From a virus: 37,731 bases of DNA. Each line of letters starts with the position of its first letter. Position 1 is the first letter of the stretch. This document shows, in pieces, positions 9,164 through 37,698 of the stretch. The notes beneath the pieces were generated by a model. It was not told the origin of the DNA. It made no database searches and saw nothing but the letters and a program-made list of their open reading frames with translations. Both the position numbers and the translations under genes were made by a program. Location of the stretch: positions 1-37,731 of the IMG/VR virus record IMGVR_UViG_3300046660_000803; one strand, given 5' to 3'.

Positions 9164-11610
9164 TAGATGGTCCACCTGATTGCGGGCACCAACTGCGTTG
9201 GATGCATGCCAGTTGGCTGACTTGCAGTCGGAACAACTGATGTTCCATTGCACTTGTAAACCACGATCTGCGGAATCCCCCCGGTGTTGCTGTTCTTTCC
9301 TACTGCCAGATAGCCAGCCGAAAAAGCGGAGTCAGATACGTTATCCGGCGGTTGTGAGGCCGGAATAGTCTGTGCCCCAAGTACGCCAGCGTTCACAGGG
9401 AATACCGCCATCCTGGGCGCCAGGCCGCCATCCAGTACGTAAATGAAATTCCCGTCATCACTGAAATGCGCGCCGCGCCCCGATGCGACAGATCCAGGGG
9501 CTGCGCCACTTCGGAAGATCACTGACGATGGGGTCACCTCCCACACGTTCAGCTTGTTATTGCTCCATTCGGCGAGGTACTTCCCGTCCCTGGACCAGCT
9601 AAATCCTTCCGGGGCCTGAACATTCTGTCCCGACGCAGGAGAAAAGCTGCTCACGAGAGTGCTGGTGCCCGCATCGAACCTGATTACCTTGAATCCAAAA
9701 TCAGGAGATCCCGTAGCTACCGAGCATGTCAGGAATTCACCAGTAGGGCTCCAGCCAATGCGCAGGCCGCCCGCGGCGATGACGAAGAATGATTTGAACT
9801 TGTACTGCCCGGATTCAAACTTGTACATATTGATCCGGATGACACTGCTAACCGTGTAGCAGATTGCGAGGTGCACGCCATCGGGGTGGAACGCGATGCT
9901 TCTCACTGACGTCGTGGGAACCACATCGATATCGGTAGATACGGCGTACGTGCTGACACTCGGATTCAGCTTATAGAGCTGCAAGAACGGAGAGTTCAGC
10001 GCTCCTACTGCGGCATAGACCGTGCTTGGACTAATACCAAAAGCGCCATCCCCATTGGGCGTGAGGGACGAAAGTGCGGCATACGCCGAAAGGTTCTCGT
10101 AACCACCAGTAAATAGTGTCTGTGGAATCGCCAGGCCCAGTAGCTGCGCCTCGGAGTTGATGGAGTACTCGCGCTCGGTCCAGGCCAGCTTGCTGTCGAA
10201 CACGCGCACGGTGAAGCGGTACAGGCCGCCGGCAGTGGAGCTGCCCGAGATCGCGCCGGCCGAGTTCATCGACAGGCCCGGCGGGAGGCCGCCGTTGGTG
10301 AGGAAGAAGTTGTAGGGCCCGGTCCCACCGATGACGCCGAAGCTGAAGGCCGGATAGGTCAGGCCCACCAGCGTGCTCGGCGGCAGGCCGGTCAGCTCCA
10401 GCTCGGTCGGGAAGTCCACCGGCACCGTCTCCGGGCCCTCGCCGGTGCCGAACACCAGCTCAGCGGAGGGGATGACCACCATGCTCTGGTTGTCGGCCAG
10501 CACCGGCGAAACCCGGCGGCGCACCAGCGGGTCGCGGCCTTCGAGGTAATAGCCCCACGCGATCTCCCAGAGCCGGCCCTCGCGGAAGTCGCCGCCGTAC
10601 CACGTGCCGCCCCACTTGATGGCGTGCGACAGGCGCCAGCGATCCATGCCGTAGGAACCGCGACGGGTCCACAGGCCGGACACCACGTCGTAGCAGAAGG
10701 TCAGCCCGTTGGGGAAGGTCAGGCAGTAGACCTTGAACCCGCGATCCTCCCAGGTGAAGGCGAACGCCTCCGCCCAGTTGAACCCGGCAATGGCGCGGTC
10801 CATGACTCGCGTCGAGAGCGGAACAGCGGAATACCCGTTCAGCCGGTACACCACGCCATCGTCGGCCAGCCACATCAGCGTGTTGTCGAGCTTGGCGATC
10901 GTGTGCCGCGACGCGCAGCCGCGGGCGATCGGCTGGCGCCGGTTCTGGAACGTGCCGGTGGCCGCGCCCGCGTTGTAGAAGAACTCGATCGTGCGCTGGT
11001 TGAACACCACCACTTCCGAGCCGCTGACGGCCAGGCCCACGATGCGGTCGGGCGATGCTTCGGATTCGTACCGGTCCAGGCTGTTGTAGTCGGTCGCGTC
11101 AGCCAGGTTCGAGTGGAACCAGAACCGGCCCAGCGGCTCGACGCCCAGCATGTACGAATCGAGGTAGTCCGACGAGATCGAGCCCGGATAGGCCGGGTCG
11201 GTGATCTTGGCGAACACGCCGGTCGAGGTCGTATAGGCGTACCCGCCGCCGCCCTCCCCGTTCTCCACCAGCAGCTGATAGCCGGTGCTGAACTGGTTGT
11301 GGCTCATCGACACCCGGCCGACGCCCGGGATCGTGCCCAGCGGCACCACGGTGCCGTTCGGGTTGATGCGGCACAGCGTCTGGCCGGAGACGACGTAGCG
11401 GCCACCCTCCAGGTCGTGCATGCCGCGGATGGGCCCCTGCCCGACCTGCAGGTACGGCTTCAACCCAGGTGCAGTGGCCAGCTTCCACGCAGTGCGCGTG
11501 CCGGCCACCTCAGCGCGGAACGGCAACCAGTTCAGGGTGTCCTGGCACGCCCACGGCAGCGTGTCGTCGGTGTAGAAGCCTCCGATCAGGTCAACGGGTT
11601 GGGCACGCAT
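9163..11610 (-). CDS. gp10-like tail hub / DNA-stabilisation protein with Ig and beta-propeller extension
   Basis: The protein has 815 aa; P22 gp10 is about 470. Residues ~1-390 match the gp10-type hub (QPVDLIGGFY start, GIRGMHDL-like and SDGVVYRLNG-type repeats, FAFTWEDRGFKVYCLTFP). Residues ~400-473 form a putative Ig domain (GGTGPYNF, LPPGLSMNSAGAISGSS). Residues ~490-815 show WD40/beta-propeller-like repeats (VRSIAFHPDGVHLAICY, GLRIGWSPTGEFLTC, GFSWSRDGKYLAEW, GRGAHFSDDGNFIYVLDG). The DNA for this last part is much poorer in GC than the rest, pointing to a horizontally acquired insert. gp10 closes the head-tail channel; the propeller could contact the fibre or the receptor. Confidence 0.82.
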   Translation of the reverse strand: MRAQPVDLIGGFYTDDTLPWACQDTLNWLPFRAEVAGTRTAWKLATAPGLKPYLQVGQGPIRGMHDLEGGRYVVSGQTLCRINPNGTVVPLGTIPGVGRVSMSHNQFSTGYQLLVENGEGGGGYAYTTSTGVFAKITDPAYPGSISSDYLDSYMLGVEPLGRFWFHSNLADATDYNSLDRYESEASPDRIVGLAVSGSEVVVFNQRTIEFFYNAGAATGTFQNRRQPIARGCASRHTIAKLDNTLMWLADDGVVYRLNGYSAVPLSTRVMDRAIAGFNWAEAFAFTWEDRGFKVYCLTFPNGLTFCYDVVSGLWTRRGSYGMDRWRLSHAIKWGGTWYGGDFREGRLWEIAWGYYLEGRDPLVRRRVSPVLADNQSMVVIPSAELVFGTGEGPETVPVDFPTELELTGLPPSTLVGLTYPAFSFGVIGGTGPYNFFLTNGGLPPGLSMNSAGAISGSSTAGGLYRFTVRVFDSKLAWTEREYSINSEAQLLGLAIPQTLFTGGYENLSAYAALSSLTPNGDGAFGISPSTVYAAVGALNSPFLQLYKLNPSVSTYAVSTDIDVVPTTSVRSIAFHPDGVHLAICYTVSSVIRINMYKFESGQYKFKSFFVIAAGGLRIGWSPTGEFLTCSVATGSPDFGFKVIRFDAGTSTLVSSFSPASGQNVQAPEGFSWSRDGKYLAEWSNNKLNVWEVTPSSVIFRSGAAPGSVASGRGAHFSDDGNFIYVLDGGLAPRMAVFPVNAGVLGAQTIPASQPPDNVSDSAFSAGYLAVGKNSNTGGIPQIVVYKCNGTSVVPTASQPTGMHPTQLVPAIRWTI

Positions 11611-25250: not shown

Positions 25251-25454
25251 TCACGCAGCCTTCTTGCGCCGGGCGGCCTTGCGCGCCTCGGAAGCGGCCA
25301 GGTCCACCAACGCCTTGCCAACCTCGTAGGTCGGCTGCATCAGGTCCCGGCGAATACGGTTGATGGTCGGCTGGGTCACACCGACGGCAGACCCAATGGC
25401 CTGCTCAGTCATTCCAGCCTTGCGGAGGGTCTCGATGGCGGTTGATGGGTTCAT
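25251..25454 (-). CDS. Cro-like repressor
   Basis: The protein has 67 aa. ATG 25454 faces away from the repressor gene. An HTH (AIETLRKAGMTEQAIGSAVGVTQPTINRIRR) is followed by a short helix and a basic tail (ASEARKAARRKKAA). It is the first gene of the early-right operon and diverges from the CI-like gene across an operator region of less than 90 bases. It should shut off the repressor gene and trim early transcription. Confidence 0.85.
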   Translation of the reverse strand: MNPSTAIETLRKAGMTEQAIGSAVGVTQPTINRIRRDLMQPTYEVGKALVDLAASEARKAARRKKAA

Positions 25455-25464
25455 GACCGCAGAG

Positions 25465-25492
25465 ATTATTCCGTTCCGAATTGGAATGGAAT
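25465..25492 (-). promoter_or_regulatory. Early-right promoter pR with 25-bp imperfect palindromic operator
   Basis: A -10 AATAAT (25470-25465, minus strand) lies 10 bases upstream of the cro ATG, with only a weak -35. A 25-base inverted repeat (25468-25492, 10 of 12 pairs matching) covers the promoter. Its left 15 bases match a site inside the opposite early promoter except for two central bases, so it is a strong operator candidate for CI or Cro. Confidence 0.55.
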
Positions 25493-25509
25493 GCCTTTCC
25501 GAATTTTGT
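25481..25509 (+). promoter_or_regulatory. Candidate repressor-maintenance promoter (pRM)
   Basis: TTGGAA (25481-25486), 17 bases, TTTTGT (25504-25509), reading toward the repressor. The hexamers are weak, as expected for an activated promoter. A transcript would start only a few bases before ATG 25522, so the repressor mRNA might be nearly leaderless, as in lambda. A CCGAATT half-site lies at 25499-25505. Confidence 0.35.
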
Positions 25510-25521
25510 CCGACGAACGGT

Positions 25522-25541
25522 ATGCCGGATCATTCCGGTAT
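25522..25541. promoter_or_regulatory. 20-bp inverted repeat, possible further operator
   Basis: ATGCCGGA and TCCGGTAT face each other across TCAT (7 of 8 pairs match). A direct repeat GGTATGC also flanks it (25519 and 25537). It lies at the start of the repressor gene, upstream of or within its first codons depending on the true start. Confidence 0.4.
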
Positions 25542-26001
25542 GCATGACGCCGATCTGATCCGAAGCAACATCCGGCACCTTCTCAACGCCTCGGGCCTCA
25601 CGGAGACCGAGGTGGCAGACCGCGCCGGCATCAATCAGCCCTGGCTCAACCGATTCCTACGCAAGGACATCAAGAAGCCGAACCAGGAGAAACTAGGCCT
25701 GCTGGCCAAGGCGTTCGGCGTCACTGCCAGCGATCTGGCCTTCAAGGACATGGCCGGCACCCTCCCTGCCCCTGCGTCTCAGCCTGTGGGATCGGAACGC
25801 GAGATAGTCGCAGCCGCAGTGAAGCTGGTCAGCGAAATGGAGGCGATGTCCCCCGAGCCGCTGCCCCAGGAGACCTACGCCGAGCGCCTCTACGTCGCCA
25901 TGAAGGTGGTGCAGGAGGAAGGCGCCAGCGGGGTCCTGGACGATAGCAACGTAATCGTTGCCCTACGTCGCTTTGCCGCAGAGCTTCGTAAAACTGGGTG
26001 A
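25540..26001 (+). CDS. CI-like phage repressor without protease domain
   Basis: The protein has 153 aa from ATG 25540; ATG 25522 (159 aa) is possible, and neither has a good SD. The N-terminal HTH is clear (LIRSNIRHLLNASGLTETEVADRAGINQ, PWLNRFLRKD, LGLLAKAFGVTASDLAF). The remaining ~85 residues are helical (EREIVAAAVKLVSEMEAM, VIVALRRFAAELRK). No S24/LexA-type Ser-Lys dyad or cleavage Ala-Gly region is visible, so RecA-stimulated self-cleavage looks unlikely. It diverges from cro and heads a three-gene plus-strand operon. Confidence 0.8.
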   Translation: MHDADLIRSNIRHLLNASGLTETEVADRAGINQPWLNRFLRKDIKKPNQEKLGLLAKAFGVTASDLAFKDMAGTLPAPASQPVGSEREIVAAAVKLVSEMEAMSPEPLPQETYAERLYVAMKVVQEEGASGVLDDSNVIVALRRFAAELRKTG

Positions 26002-26011
26002 GGAGAGCGGG

Positions 26012-26374
26012 ATGACGATCAGCGACGAGCGACTGAAGGAACTGGCGACCGAGATGGCGCAGGCAATGGGCATGAAGCCGAAGGCGCCGACAGGCCCTAC
26101 CCTCGTGCGCGGCGGCCAGGTGATCGCCTTCCAGCGCTCCGGCATGGACGGGGCCACCCGGGACATCATCTATGCCCGCATCCGCGATCTGGCCCGAATG
26201 TACTGGCTGGCGTGGCTGATCCGCCAAGAGACCGCCCATGTCCGGGGCGTAATCGAGTGCCTGACCGACGAGGCGCTGCTGGAGCTGAAGGACAAGATGG
26301 AACGTGCCCGGGAGTGCCGGGTGGAAGGTATCGGCTTCGACGAAGCTGGCCTAGTCAGGGAGCAGATGCTATGA
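26012..26374 (+). CDS. Hypothetical protein of the repressor operon, 120 aa
   Basis: ATG 26012 follows a good GAGGAGAG site. The chain (TISDERLKELATEMAQAMG, RDIIYARIRDLARMYWLAWLIRQE, DEALLELKDKMERARECR) is mainly amphipathic helix with no signal peptide. It sits between the repressor and a lipoprotein gene and overlaps the latter in ATGA, so it should be made in the lysogen. I do not recognise a family. Confidence 0.75.
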   Translation: MTISDERLKELATEMAQAMGMKPKAPTGPTLVRGGQVIAFQRSGMDGATRDIIYARIRDLARMYWLAWLIRQETAHVRGVIECLTDEALLELKDKMERARECRVEGIGFDEAGLVREQML

Positions 26375-26934
26375 GTTGGACAAAATTGGTTGGGGTAGTC
26401 CTCCTGCCCGCGGCGCTATCGTCCTGCGCGCAACAAGGCCCAAGTGCGGCGGAGGCGAATGCAAAGGTTGCCGCACTGAACACCGCACTAGCCGAGGCGG
26501 AAACCCGCATCAATGCGCTGGAGGGTGCCAACAGGATCAGGGCGATCACTGAGAACAGTGAGGGAAAGGCATACCTCGATCCTACATCTGACGGGTACAG
26601 CCTTGCGAAAACAGACGTTGGAGCTCTGCTCGTCTCGTTTCAATCCAGCGCACCAAAGGCTGATGGGACGGAGGTTACGTTCCGCGTAGGAAACCCCACC
26701 GCCGCCTCGTTGGTTGGGGTCAAATTCCATGTGGAGTACAACGTCCGCCAAGGCGACGACCCGAACTGGGCTGATTCGATCAAGTCCACGGACTACACGG
26801 CAGTAGAGCCCCTTTACTCTGGCTCCTGGTCCCTTGTGCGAGTCCCACTTCCTGCGATCAAGCCCGATCAGCTTGGATTTTTGGCCGTAACACTGAAGAC
26901 GAACGAGATCCGTCTCAACCAGCCGTACCGCTGA
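26371..26934 (+). CDS. DUF3251-like lipoprotein (lysogenic-conversion candidate)
   Basis: The protein has 187 aa. A lipoprotein signal peptide ends in LSSC (Cys19), followed by a short coiled coil (ANAKVAALNTALAEAETRINALE) and a beta domain with YLDPTSDGYSLAKTDVGALLVSF and VTFRVGNPTAASLVGVKFHVEY. This wording is like the DUF3251/YajI family of lipoproteins. The gene is coupled to the repressor operon and is clearly lower in GC than its neighbours (32 of 60 bases at 26581-26640), a sign of transfer. Expression in the lysogen would place it on the envelope, where phage lipoproteins often block superinfection; that role is inference. Confidence 0.8.
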   Translation: MSWTKLVGVVLLPAALSSCAQQGPSAAEANAKVAALNTALAEAETRINALEGANRIRAITENSEGKAYLDPTSDGYSLAKTDVGALLVSFQSSAPKADGTEVTFRVGNPTAASLVGVKFHVEYNVRQGDDPNWADSIKSTDYTAVEPLYSGSWSLVRVPLPAIKPDQLGFLAVTLKTNEIRLNQPYR

Positions 26935-26942
26935 CCAGGCGA

Positions 26943-26965
26943 GGTAGGTAGACCATCTACCTACC
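26943..26965. other. Perfect 23-bp hairpin after the lipoprotein gene
   Basis: GGTAGGTAGA and TCTACCTACC pair perfectly around CCA. It starts nine bases after the lipoprotein stop. There is no T-run after it on either strand, so it could be a factor-dependent terminator, an mRNA end-protecting hairpin, or an operator of the adjacent early-left promoter. Confidence 0.5.
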
Positions 26966-26979
26966 GTTCGTCGGCCAAT

Positions 26980-26995
26980 CCGAATAATTATTCGG
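26980..26995. promoter_or_regulatory. Perfect 16-bp palindrome, early-left operator candidate
   Basis: CCGAATAATTATTCGG is self-complementary over its full length and lies eight bases upstream of the -35 of the early-left promoter. Its half-site CCGAAT also occurs in the repressor/cro control region, suggesting a shared DNA-binding protein. Confidence 0.6.
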
Positions 26996-27002
26996 TTCTG
27001 TA

Positions 27003-27031
27003 TTGACTGAGAATTCGGTTCGGAATATTGT
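27003..27031 (+). promoter_or_regulatory. Early-left promoter (pL-like) with internal operator
   Basis: TTGACT (27003-27008), 17 bases, TATTGT (27026-27031): the best sigma70 match I noticed in the window. The spacer and -10 contain AATTCGGTTCGGAAT (27012-27026), which equals the inverse of the pR operator half at 25468-25482 except for the two central bases. It would drive the long plus-strand early operon from 27083 on and be shut by the repressor. Confidence 0.75.
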
Positions 27032-35032: not shown

Positions 35033-35378
35033 AAAACTGATGACCCTGGCGCAGGCGGCCGACCGCTGCGAGTGCTCCACGAAGACCCTGCGCCGCGCTA
35101 TCGATGCCGGCGAGCTGGCCGCCTGCCGGCTCGGTCAGGGTCCAAAATCCGACAGAATTCACCCCGCCGACCTGAATGCCTGGTGGGCAAAATGCAAGGT
35201 AAGGACATGCCCGTCACCAAGCGTCCCAATGGACACTACCAAGTTACCGTCAGCGTCGGCGGACGAACAACTCGCAAATCTTCTCGGCATTGGTCCTTCC
35301 AGGACGCCAAGGCATACGAGCGCAAAATGCTCGCCTCGGTCCGGGACATTGCGGCTGGTCGCCAGCCGGAAAGACTGA
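35019..35378 (+). CDS. Excisionase-like HTH protein (Xis)
   Basis: The protein is 119 aa from ATG 35019, which lies 14 bases inside the preceding gene. Residues ~7-60 are a winged HTH of the MerR/HTH_17 kind (LMTLAQAADRCECSTKTLRRAIDAGELAAC, DRIHPADLNAWWA). The rest is Ser/Thr/Pro-rich and lies in the integrase overlap (172 bases). Position before the integrase marks it as Xis, which bends att DNA and favours excision. Confidence 0.75.
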   Translation: MSAAEKLMTLAQAADRCECSTKTLRRAIDAGELAACRLGQGPKSDRIHPADLNAWWAKCKVRTCPSPSVPMDTTKLPSASADEQLANLLGIGPSRTPRHTSAKCSPRSGTLRLVASRKD

Positions 35379-36136
35379 TCGCCGATGCGGTGAAGAAGTG
35401 GATGGTGGACCACGTGCCGCGGCTGCGATCGGCGGTGAAGACCGCTGCGCACGTCCGGGCGCTGTTCCCGTACATCGCCGGGCGGAAGCTGTCGGAGGTG
35501 TCTCAGGTCTGGGCCGAGATCAAGGCGGCGGAGATCGGCAAGGCGCCGGCCACGGTCAACCACAAGGGCCGCATCCTGCGCCAGGTGACGCGGATGGCGT
35601 GGCGGGAATGGGGGTGGCTGGAGCGGCCGGCGGTGATTGCCCTGCTGCCCGAGAAGCCGCGCGAGACGTTCCTGACGACCGAGCAGGTCGAGGCACTGGC
35701 GCGGGCCTGCCCGAACCCGGCAGCGGGCGACTACGTGCGGCTGGCGGCGTACACCGGCATCCGGCGCGGCCACCTGCTGCGGCTGACCGCCCACGAGGTG
35801 CGCGGCGGGTTCCTCCACCTAGACCGGACCAGCAAGACGAAGACGCTGCAGCTGGTGCCGCTACACCCCCGGGTGCTGGGCATCGCCGCGCGGTTGCCGC
35901 TGGGCGTTTCCGACGACCAGGTGCGCGATTCGTGGGCCAAGGCGCGCGAGGCGTGCGGGCTGCAGCACGTGCGCTGGCACGACCTCCGGCACACCTGCGC
36001 GTCGTGGCTGGTTCAGGCAGGCGTGTCGCTGCACACGGTGTCGGAGGTGCTGGGCCACAGCTCCATGGCGATGACGCGGCGGTACGCGCATCTGGCGCCG
36101 GATCACCTCGCCGAGGCCATCAAAAAGCTGGCGTAA
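35207..36136 (+). CDS. int: Tyrosine integrase
   Basis: The protein has 309 aa from ATG 35207, which has AAGGTAAGG upstream; ATG 35192 is an alternative. The N-terminus (PVTKRPNGHYQVTVSVGGRTTRKS) is an arm-binding-type domain. Catalytic residues are Arg186 in TGIRRGHL, His258 and Arg261 in HDLRHTCAS, His284 in LGHSS and Tyr293 in RRYAHL. It directs integration into the 3' end of the tRNA-Leu gene lying ~100 bases downstream. It is the last gene of the early-left operon. Confidence 0.95.
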   Translation: MPVTKRPNGHYQVTVSVGGRTTRKSSRHWSFQDAKAYERKMLASVRDIAAGRQPERLIADAVKKWMVDHVPRLRSAVKTAAHVRALFPYIAGRKLSEVSQVWAEIKAAEIGKAPATVNHKGRILRQVTRMAWREWGWLERPAVIALLPEKPRETFLTTEQVEALARACPNPAAGDYVRLAAYTGIRRGHLLRLTAHEVRGGFLHLDRTSKTKTLQLVPLHPRVLGIAARLPLGVSDDQVRDSWAKAREACGLQHVRWHDLRHTCASWLVQAGVSLHTVSEVLGHSSMAMTRRYAHLAPDHLAEAIKKLA

Positions 36137-36288: not shown

Positions 36289-37698
36289 TCAGATCGCCCG
36301 CGAATAGCGCACCGGCTGTTCGGGCTTGGCCAGGTAACGATCGAAGCACATCGCCAACAGGCGCAGCAGCGGACGCCCACGCGCGGTGGCACGCACGACG
36401 CCGTCGCGGTACCCGGCCAGGCCATCGGCCTCCAGCGCCGTCAACGCGGTGAGCGCATCGGCGAAGTACTGGTCGAAATCGACACCGTGGCGTGCGGCCA
36501 GCGCGCGACCATCCACTTCGCCCTGGCACATCAGCTGGTTGATCAGCGCGGCGCGCAGCGTATCGTCCGCATCCAGGGTGAGCCCCCGCCACACCGGCAG
36601 GCGCCCGGCATCCACCGCCGTTTCCCAGCCCGGCAGCTCGCGCGGGTTCTGGCTGTAGCTGTTGCCGATCCTGCTGATCGCGCTGGCGCCCAGCCCGACC
36701 AGGTCGGTCTGCGCGTGGGTGGTGTAGCCCATGAAGTTGCGGTGCAGCTGGCCGGCGCGCTGGGCGCGGGAGAGGTTTTCATCCGGCAGCGCGAAGTGGT
36801 CCATGCCGATGTACTGGTATCCGGCCAGCGACAACCGACGCACCGCCAGGCCCAGCAGGGCCAGCTTCTGTTCCGGGCTGGGCAGCGCGGCATCGGGGAT
36901 CTGCCGCTGCGCCTTGAACAGGTTCGGCAGGTGCGCATAGCCATAGATCGCCAACCGGTCGGGGCGTTCGCGCAGCACCGTTTCCAGGGTGCGCGCAAAG
37001 CCTTCCAGGGTCTGGTGCGGCAGGCCGTAGATCAGGTCCACGTTGACCGAGCGCAGGCCATGCTCGCGGCAGGCACGCAGTACCTCCAGCGTGGCCTCCA
37101 CGCCCTGCTCGCGGTTGATCGCACGCTGCACCACCGGGTCGAAATCCTGGATGCCCAGGCTTGCCCGGTTGAAGCCCAGCGCGCCCAGCACGGCGATGTC
37201 GTCGCGGGTGACGAAGCGCGGATCCAGCTCGATCGAGAAATCGCGGCTGGCCGAGGTGCTGAACGAAAAGCGCTGGCGCAGGCCGTCGATCAGCTCGCGC
37301 ATCTGGGCGGCGGCCAGGAAGTTCGGGGTGCCACCGCCAAGATGCAGCTGCACCACCTCGCGCGCGGCATCGAACAACGGCGCGATCAGGTCGGCTTCGC
37401 TGAGCACGCGCGCGACATACGCCACGCCCTTGCCATGGTCGCGGGTGATCACCCGGTTGCAGCCGCAGTAGAAGCACGGGCTGCTGCAGTACGGCACATG
37501 CACGTACAACGACAGCGGCAGCGCTTGCACGTTGCTGGCCGCGATCGCGGCGCGCAGCCCGTGTTCGCCGAAGCCGTCGTGGAAATGCGGCGCGGTGGGA
37601 TAGGAGGTATAGCGCGGGCCGGGCCGGTCGTGGCGGCGCAGCAGGTCCGGATCGAAGTGCCAGGCAAGCCCGGCGGCGGCAGGCGAAAGAGTATCCAT
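36289..37698 (-). CDS. hemN: Oxygen-independent coproporphyrinogen III dehydrogenase HemN (host)
   Basis: The protein has 469 aa, usual length. A radical-SAM cluster motif CSSPCFYCGC gives Cys71, Cys75, Cys78 and Cys80, as in E. coli HemN. LHLGGGTPNFL is the SAM-binding GGGTP element; VNVDLIYGLPHQT and the HAQTDLVGLGASAIS segment are typical. It decarboxylates two propionates of coproporphyrinogen III to vinyl groups to give protoporphyrinogen IX without oxygen. Its stop begins two bases after the tRNA-Leu CCA, so the two are convergent, and integration leaves it intact. Confidence 0.95.
   Translation of the reverse strand: MDTLSPAAAGLAWHFDPDLLRRHDRPGPRYTSYPTAPHFHDGFGEHGLRAAIAASNVQALPLSLYVHVPYCSSPCFYCGCNRVITRDHGKGVAYVARVLSEADLIAPLFDAAREVVQLHLGGGTPNFLAAAQMRELIDGLRQRFSFSTSASRDFSIELDPRFVTRDDIAVLGALGFNRASLGIQDFDPVVQRAINREQGVEATLEVLRACREHGLRSVNVDLIYGLPHQTLEGFARTLETVLRERPDRLAIYGYAHLPNLFKAQRQIPDAALPSPEQKLALLGLAVRRLSLAGYQYIGMDHFALPDENLSRAQRAGQLHRNFMGYTTHAQTDLVGLGASAISRIGNSYSQNPRELPGWETAVDAGRLPVWRGLTLDADDTLRAALINQLMCQGEVDGRALAARHGVDFDQYFADALTALTALEADGLAGYRDGVVRATARGRPLLRLLAMCFDRYLAKPEQPVRYSRAI

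Follow-up and report, generated by a model that had tools for sequence, protein, structure and literature searches.

In a Stenotrophomonas prophage of podovirus type, the repressor operon ends in an exchangeable slot, bordered by a constant 120-aa gene and a conserved hairpin, and in this prophage and all other loci of its close clade the slot holds a gene for a protein with the features of an envelope protein. The present occupant is a DUF3251 lipoprotein of the SadB/YajI family, and in the lysogen it probably helps to keep out other phages. We favour superinfection exclusion at the envelope as the way in which it would do so, a reading to which we give an even chance. It is favoured by a placement suited to expression in the lysogen, by products that are all predicted to go to the envelope, by exchange that is faster than that of the neighbouring genes, and by the precedents of Ltp, the mEpimmI lipoproteins, SieA and bstA. 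An earlier note on this DNA had proposed that a lipoprotein made in the lysogen blocks superinfection; sequence comparison partly supports this proposal, which is strengthened by the envelope-filled slot, by a similar order of repressor and lipoprotein genes in an Achromobacter phage, and by the presence of the closest DUF3251 relatives in prophages.

The prophage and its repressor operon

The window, by which we mean the whole stretch of 37,731 bases in the IMG/VR record, carries late genes of the P22-like podovirus type, including those for portal, scaffolding, major head and head closure proteins, a head-tail adaptor, DNA ejection proteins and a spanin. The integrase gene (35072–36136) adjoins a host hemN-like gene (36289–37698) at the right end of the record; since the latter shares 94% DNA identity with a Stenotrophomonas-genus genome, the record represents an integrated prophage with its chromosomal flank, and the phage is a podovirus-type Stenotrophomonas prophage.

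Three plus-strand genes form one tightly packed operon. The first (25540–26001) encodes a 153-aa repressor with a Cro/CI-type HTH (Pfam HTH_3, 3.7e-8; PHROG transcriptional repressors), the second (26012–26374) a 120-aa protein, P0002, of phrog_27415 (function unknown), and the third (26371–26934) the 187-aa DUF3251 lipoprotein (Pfam PF11622). The chaining of these genes described in the earlier note is borne out, in that the 120-aa gene starts 10 nt past the repressor stop with a GAGGAG Shine-Dalgarno sequence ahead of it, and its own stop overlaps the start of the lipoprotein gene as ATGA. Homologues confirm that both downstream genes are real. A terminator scan found no terminator-like site between the operon genes, although it lists a single weak one within the coding sequence of the lipoprotein; no sigma70-like site was found before 26371, and simple promoter scoring gave no promoter-like site within the lipoprotein gene region. 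From this arrangement we infer that the lipoprotein gene is expressed in the lysogen, where the repressor promoter would also transcribe the slot.

Upstream of the repressor are two operator-like repeats of ATTCCGTTCCGAATT, 23 nt apart (25464–25505), and a divergent Cro-like HTH gene on the minus strand (25251–25454; Pfam HTH_3, 5.4e-5; phrog_6831, 7e-10). A second pair of operator-like repeats, ATTCGGTTCNGNAT, likewise 23 nt apart, lies at 26980–27031 on the plus strand, together with a promoter-like site from which the early operon that comes next could be transcribed. In several relatives this early operon begins with genes for strongly repetitive proteins (L010 6010–7107, L017 6209–7288, L009 6021–6728 and L011 6321–7100), with repeats such as GAASSTGNYG, YGSSTVTA and WDAARDAA.

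An exchangeable slot filled with predicted envelope proteins

Comparison of the window with its closest phage, L004, by blastn shows 96% DNA identity through the repressor and the 120-aa gene up to position 26349, and then nothing until 26943. The intervening segment (26350–26942) is swapped as a unit, and L004 carries in it an unrelated protein with two transmembrane (TM) segments in place of the lipoprotein. As judged from the alignments, the borders of the slot are fixed, with the end of the 120-aa gene on the 5' side and a conserved hairpin on the 3' side. The hairpin (26943–26975, plus strand) is a perfect 10-bp inverted repeat, GGTAGGTAGA-NNN-TCTACCTACC, followed by the conserved CGTTCGTCGGC; it has a fold z of -4.76, has no T run, and is kept across eight aligned phages with different cargo. 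It is probably shared by the whole operon, and may be a terminator, an RNA element or a recombination border.

To what extent the slot favours envelope proteins is seen in the close clade, an unselected set of 20 loci made up of the window and L032–L050. An N-terminal signal peptide or TM segment is present in the slot protein of all 20, and these proteins fall into 10 unrelated families. Applied to the background genes of these loci, the same hydrophobicity heuristic picks out 17 of 169 (∼10%, an approximate figure as these genes were called with a simple ORF rule), and the bias is significant with each family counted once (Fisher p 1.2e-9). The families include the DUF3251 lipoprotein (in the window and L005/L033), the two-TM protein, an Adhesin_E-like protein, a secreted 'GDWSV' family, a phrog_890 lipoprotein and a SHOCT lipoprotein, among others. 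With the addition of 10 loci that were picked for having a slot gene, 30 of 30 are of envelope type and the families number 14; this extended set is selected, and was left out of the Fisher test.

Such variety, together with the finding that the slot is empty in several chromosomal prophages, would agree with a heterogeneous moron slot in which each gene does something of its own for the lysogen, exclusion in some cases and fitness in others, and the occupants have no function in common; the bias to the envelope would then reflect what can benefit the host without toxicity. However, a bias that is total among the unselected loci of the close clade exceeds the expectation for a mixed bag, and we regard this explanation as rather unlikely. 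The same diversity of envelope-predicted products in the close clade could also arise if the slot encoded immunity proteins, which are often periplasmic or lipoproteins, against the antibacterial toxins of rivals, either T6SS effectors or Xanthomonadales T4SS effectors; Xanthomonadales kill by contact, with effectors that act in the periplasm. Against this, none of the slot proteins matches an immunity family in Pfam, PHROG or PADLOC and the slots that were inspected have no recognisable effector gene next to them, such that toxin immunity seems decidedly improbable. What counts against exclusion itself is that no slot protein has a confident match to a known exclusion or defence family, with none of 10 slot proteins recognised with confidence by PADLOC and PHROG categories of 'other' or unknown. 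Exclusion at the envelope is the reading that we carry forward, and we propose that competing phages would impose diversifying selection on the slot, because of which it would change faster than its neighbours.

Variable accessory genes adjoining repressors are known in principle. We found no description in the literature of a slot that has such borders in this lineage and takes up envelope proteins alone, nor of DUF3251 serving a phage in lysogeny, although subscription papers are thinly covered and this absence is weak evidence. A mention of DUF3251 in phage EP335 (PMC8217332) concerns the N-terminus of a tail fibre and is not a role in lysogeny.

The type of slot gene could not be shown to be associated with the type of tail or ejection protein in a comparison of three late proteins and the head protein over 19 records, many of which are fragments, with widely varying ejection proteins. 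The window and L005 both have DUF3251, and one of their ejection-region proteins is 54% identical over 379 aa; the other has no match in L005. The window and L004 have a common head protein (96%) and differ in both the slot and the ejection-region proteins.

The lipoprotein is a member of the SadB/YajI family

The assignment to DUF3251 given in the earlier note stands, with a match to PF11622 of 33.1 bits over residues 19–173 (curated cut-off 23; E 6.5e-8); the match to PRK11530, the narrower YajI equivalog, scores under its cut-off of 158. A sequence search against the PDB recovered YajI (2jwy) with an E value of 1.5e-5 and SadB weakly (0.095). The sequence pattern of a type II signal peptide (26371–26427, plus strand) includes the lipobox LSSC, with Cys19 the residue predicted to be lipidated. 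The +2 residue is Ala, both here and in L005, and sorting to the outer membrane is predicted from it.

An AlphaFold model built from five window or locus sequences has a pLDDT of ∼90 over most of the C domain, and is poor in the signal peptide and linker. Its closest structural matches are SadB (Z 13.9; 2.9 Å over 121 residues) and YajI (Z 13.7), well ahead of the match ranked next, at 6.6; MATH/TRAF domains are among the lower-Z matches, as in the SadB paper (PMC3953254), and viral structures gave marginal matches only. Both its sequence and its predicted fold place the lipoprotein in the SadB/YajI family (PF11622; PDB 4c47, 2jwy), whose lipoprotein signal, N-terminal coiled coil and MATH-like C domain it is predicted to share. 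The latter is predicted as a beta-sandwich at residues 62–182 (26554–26916, plus strand). The coiled-coil helix is predicted at residues 26–52 (26446–26526, plus strand) and contains RINALE, which fits the pattern R-h-x-x-h-E that we take to be a trimer motif. This is a heptad helix. The pattern is matched in four Stenotrophomonas relatives, with a chance of ∼7% in a shuffled window segment, and has no match in the Achromobacter DUF3251 relatives.

The lipoprotein gene is poor in GC, as the earlier note had it, with 58.0% compared to 65.6% for the window, and a GC3 of 0.65 compared to ∼0.87 for most genes. Stretches of 564 nt that are this GC-poor make up 2.4% of the window and lie in three clusters, the lipoprotein gene being in one of them. 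With its odd base composition and its replacement in L004, the gene resembles a phage moron in these two respects. Another GC-poor stretch (9501–10000; 54.6%) lies inside the C-terminal half of an 815-aa head-closure/virion gene, past the part that is best matched by PHROG.

Among DUF3251 proteins with any studied role, SadB helps to export a trimeric autotransporter, raising the surface display of SadA, and YajI is uncharacterised (PMC3953254), which weighs against exclusion. A SadB-like protein could serve lysogenic conversion for host fitness, helping a trimeric autotransporter or other envelope protein of the host and so altering adhesion or biofilm. The position of SadB as the closest solved relative by fold agrees with this, as do the trimer motif and the presence of an Adhesin_E family among the slot occupants. 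In contrast to the arrangement here, however, SadB is encoded in an operon with SadA and is held at the inner membrane by a +2 Asp (PMC3953254); the lipoprotein has a +2 Ala, and no autotransporter gene is found around its operon, the neighbours being the repressor and P0002 and then the phage early operon. A single chaperone role also fails to explain replacement by unrelated secreted and TM proteins, and we consider a host-fitness role unlikely.

Distribution of DUF3251

SadB and YajI are enterobacterial chromosomal genes, whereas the gene described here sits in a prophage repressor operon. The earlier note had named broad presence outside prophages, together with a lack of effect on infection, as counting against a role in superinfection; such presence is seen at the Pfam level with these enterobacterial genes, and is not seen for the close relatives. 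DUF3251 is present in two of 91 Stenotrophomonas species genomes, both times in prophage-like surroundings, and in four of 395 Lysobacteraceae genomes. The two Stenotrophomonas copies (L080 and L083) are 41–44% identical and have a common neighbour gene with a weak terminase-family match; they adjoin other prophage genes, outside any recognised repressor operon, and the surroundings of L083 include an integrase gene and lytic tail genes. By their gene neighbourhoods, the closest DUF3251 relatives are prophage-borne. Three more distant Lysobacteraceae copies (32–37% identity) have apparently non-phage neighbours, so that the family is not purely phage-borne. These sporadic chromosomal genes (L120 6958–7587, L121 6041–6610 and L119 at about 373–849) have small membrane proteins as neighbours and a lower GC3, and are possibly within genomic islands.

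A second association with a lysogeny-type operon is seen in the unrelated Achromobacter phage CF418P1, in which a repressor-like gene, with a weak match to PHROG repressors (E 0.004), is followed first by a different lipoprotein gene and then by the DUF3251 gene; all three are conserved in two related isolate prophages. Taken with the Stenotrophomonas slot, this gene order suggests that DUF3251 appears to have been joined to a lysogeny-type operon at least twice independently, with the CF418P1 repressor match being weak. The small unrelated lipoprotein gene ahead of DUF3251 is found in three Achromobacter-type phages (L002 5318–5740, L030 3532–3954 and L031 3318–3740), which suggests a two-lipoprotein unit in these phages.

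A broader form of our proposal is that the slot is a lineage-wide cassette port for envelope shields, in which the occupants, from at least 10 unrelated families of secreted proteins, lipoproteins or membrane proteins that mostly have no described function, would all be exclusion proteins, and SadB/YajI-fold trimeric lipoproteins would be one family recruited independently by unrelated Stenotrophomonas and Achromobacter phages. We hold this only tentatively, as somewhat short of an even prospect.

A possible mechanism and its precedents

If exclusion is exerted at the envelope, the SadB/YajI-fold lipoprotein, lipidated and facing the periplasm at its predicted outer membrane location, would trimerise through its coiled coil and present the MATH-like domain. 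This domain could then interfere with the entry of a superinfecting phage, either at the level of receptor assembly or at the conduit through which DNA is ejected across the periplasm.

The nearest parallel is Ltp of the Streptococcus thermophilus phage TP-J34, a lipoprotein of the lysogeny module that blocks DNA injection (PMC3952083). The gene order of TP-J34 resembles that described here, with a repressor (crh, 121 aa), a 122-aa gene (orf3) and the lipoprotein (ltp), transcribed as a prophage in TP-J34 (PMC3952083). Ltp, however, is found at the surface of a Gram-positive cell and belongs to an unrelated lipoprotein family, and exclusion is proven for Ltp and proposed by us for the Stenotrophomonas protein; moreover the TP-J34 122-aa gene has a metalloproteinase motif, whereas P0002 has no HExxH motif. 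In the mEpimmI coliphages there are several distinct types of Lpp lipoprotein, and the two tested types exclude phages (PMC11893012), although their genes are in the structural cluster and not in the repressor operon, and they are not DUF3251 proteins. P22 SieA is an envelope exclusion protein that acts on ejection proteins (PMC10883804); like the lipoprotein it belongs to a podovirus prophage, and the window phage also encodes ejection proteins, but SieA, an inner-membrane protein with three TM segments, comes from a different family and a different locus. A parallel in position is bstA of Salmonella prophage BTP1, an accessory gene downstream of cI that is transcribed from the cI promoter (PMC7067206). 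Unlike the slot gene here, bstA is not a lipoprotein gene. The BstA protein is cytoplasmic in its action, which is one of abortive infection.

Should the exclusion reading be correct, position after the repressor and P0002 and before the hairpin would by itself allow exclusion proteins overlooked by homology tools to be gathered without reference to their sequence, and DUF3251 proteins would gain a phage role. The window and L004 would form a natural pair with common repressor and head and a different slot gene. There would also be a bearing on the choice of phages against Stenotrophomonas, as lysogens may resist them by means of such genes.

The constant 120-aa gene

Relatives of the 120-aa gene were gathered from viral contigs and from phage records, which gave Stenotrophomonas phage S1; among 91 genomes of Stenotrophomonas species, the family is present in 26. 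A profile scan of genome contigs with the P0002 alignment gave no confirmed relative, although the family matched these 26 genomes, and a scan of viral contigs with P0001 alone gave no match. The AlphaFold model of the protein is mostly helical (pLDDT 83.5), with no significant match in the PDB by Foldseek. The label of partner gene in the earlier note is misleading, as the gene follows the repressor in relatives regardless of the gene that comes next. A dedicated partnership with the lipoprotein is ruled out by its persistence where the lipoprotein is replaced; from these comparisons the 120-aa gene belongs to the regulatory module as a constant member. In the S1-like clade (L051–L078) a convergent gene for a secreted DUF4124-type protein (FKCKG...ETVYSQ...C) lies directly after the P0002 homologue, in the place that the co-directional slot gene has in the close clade.
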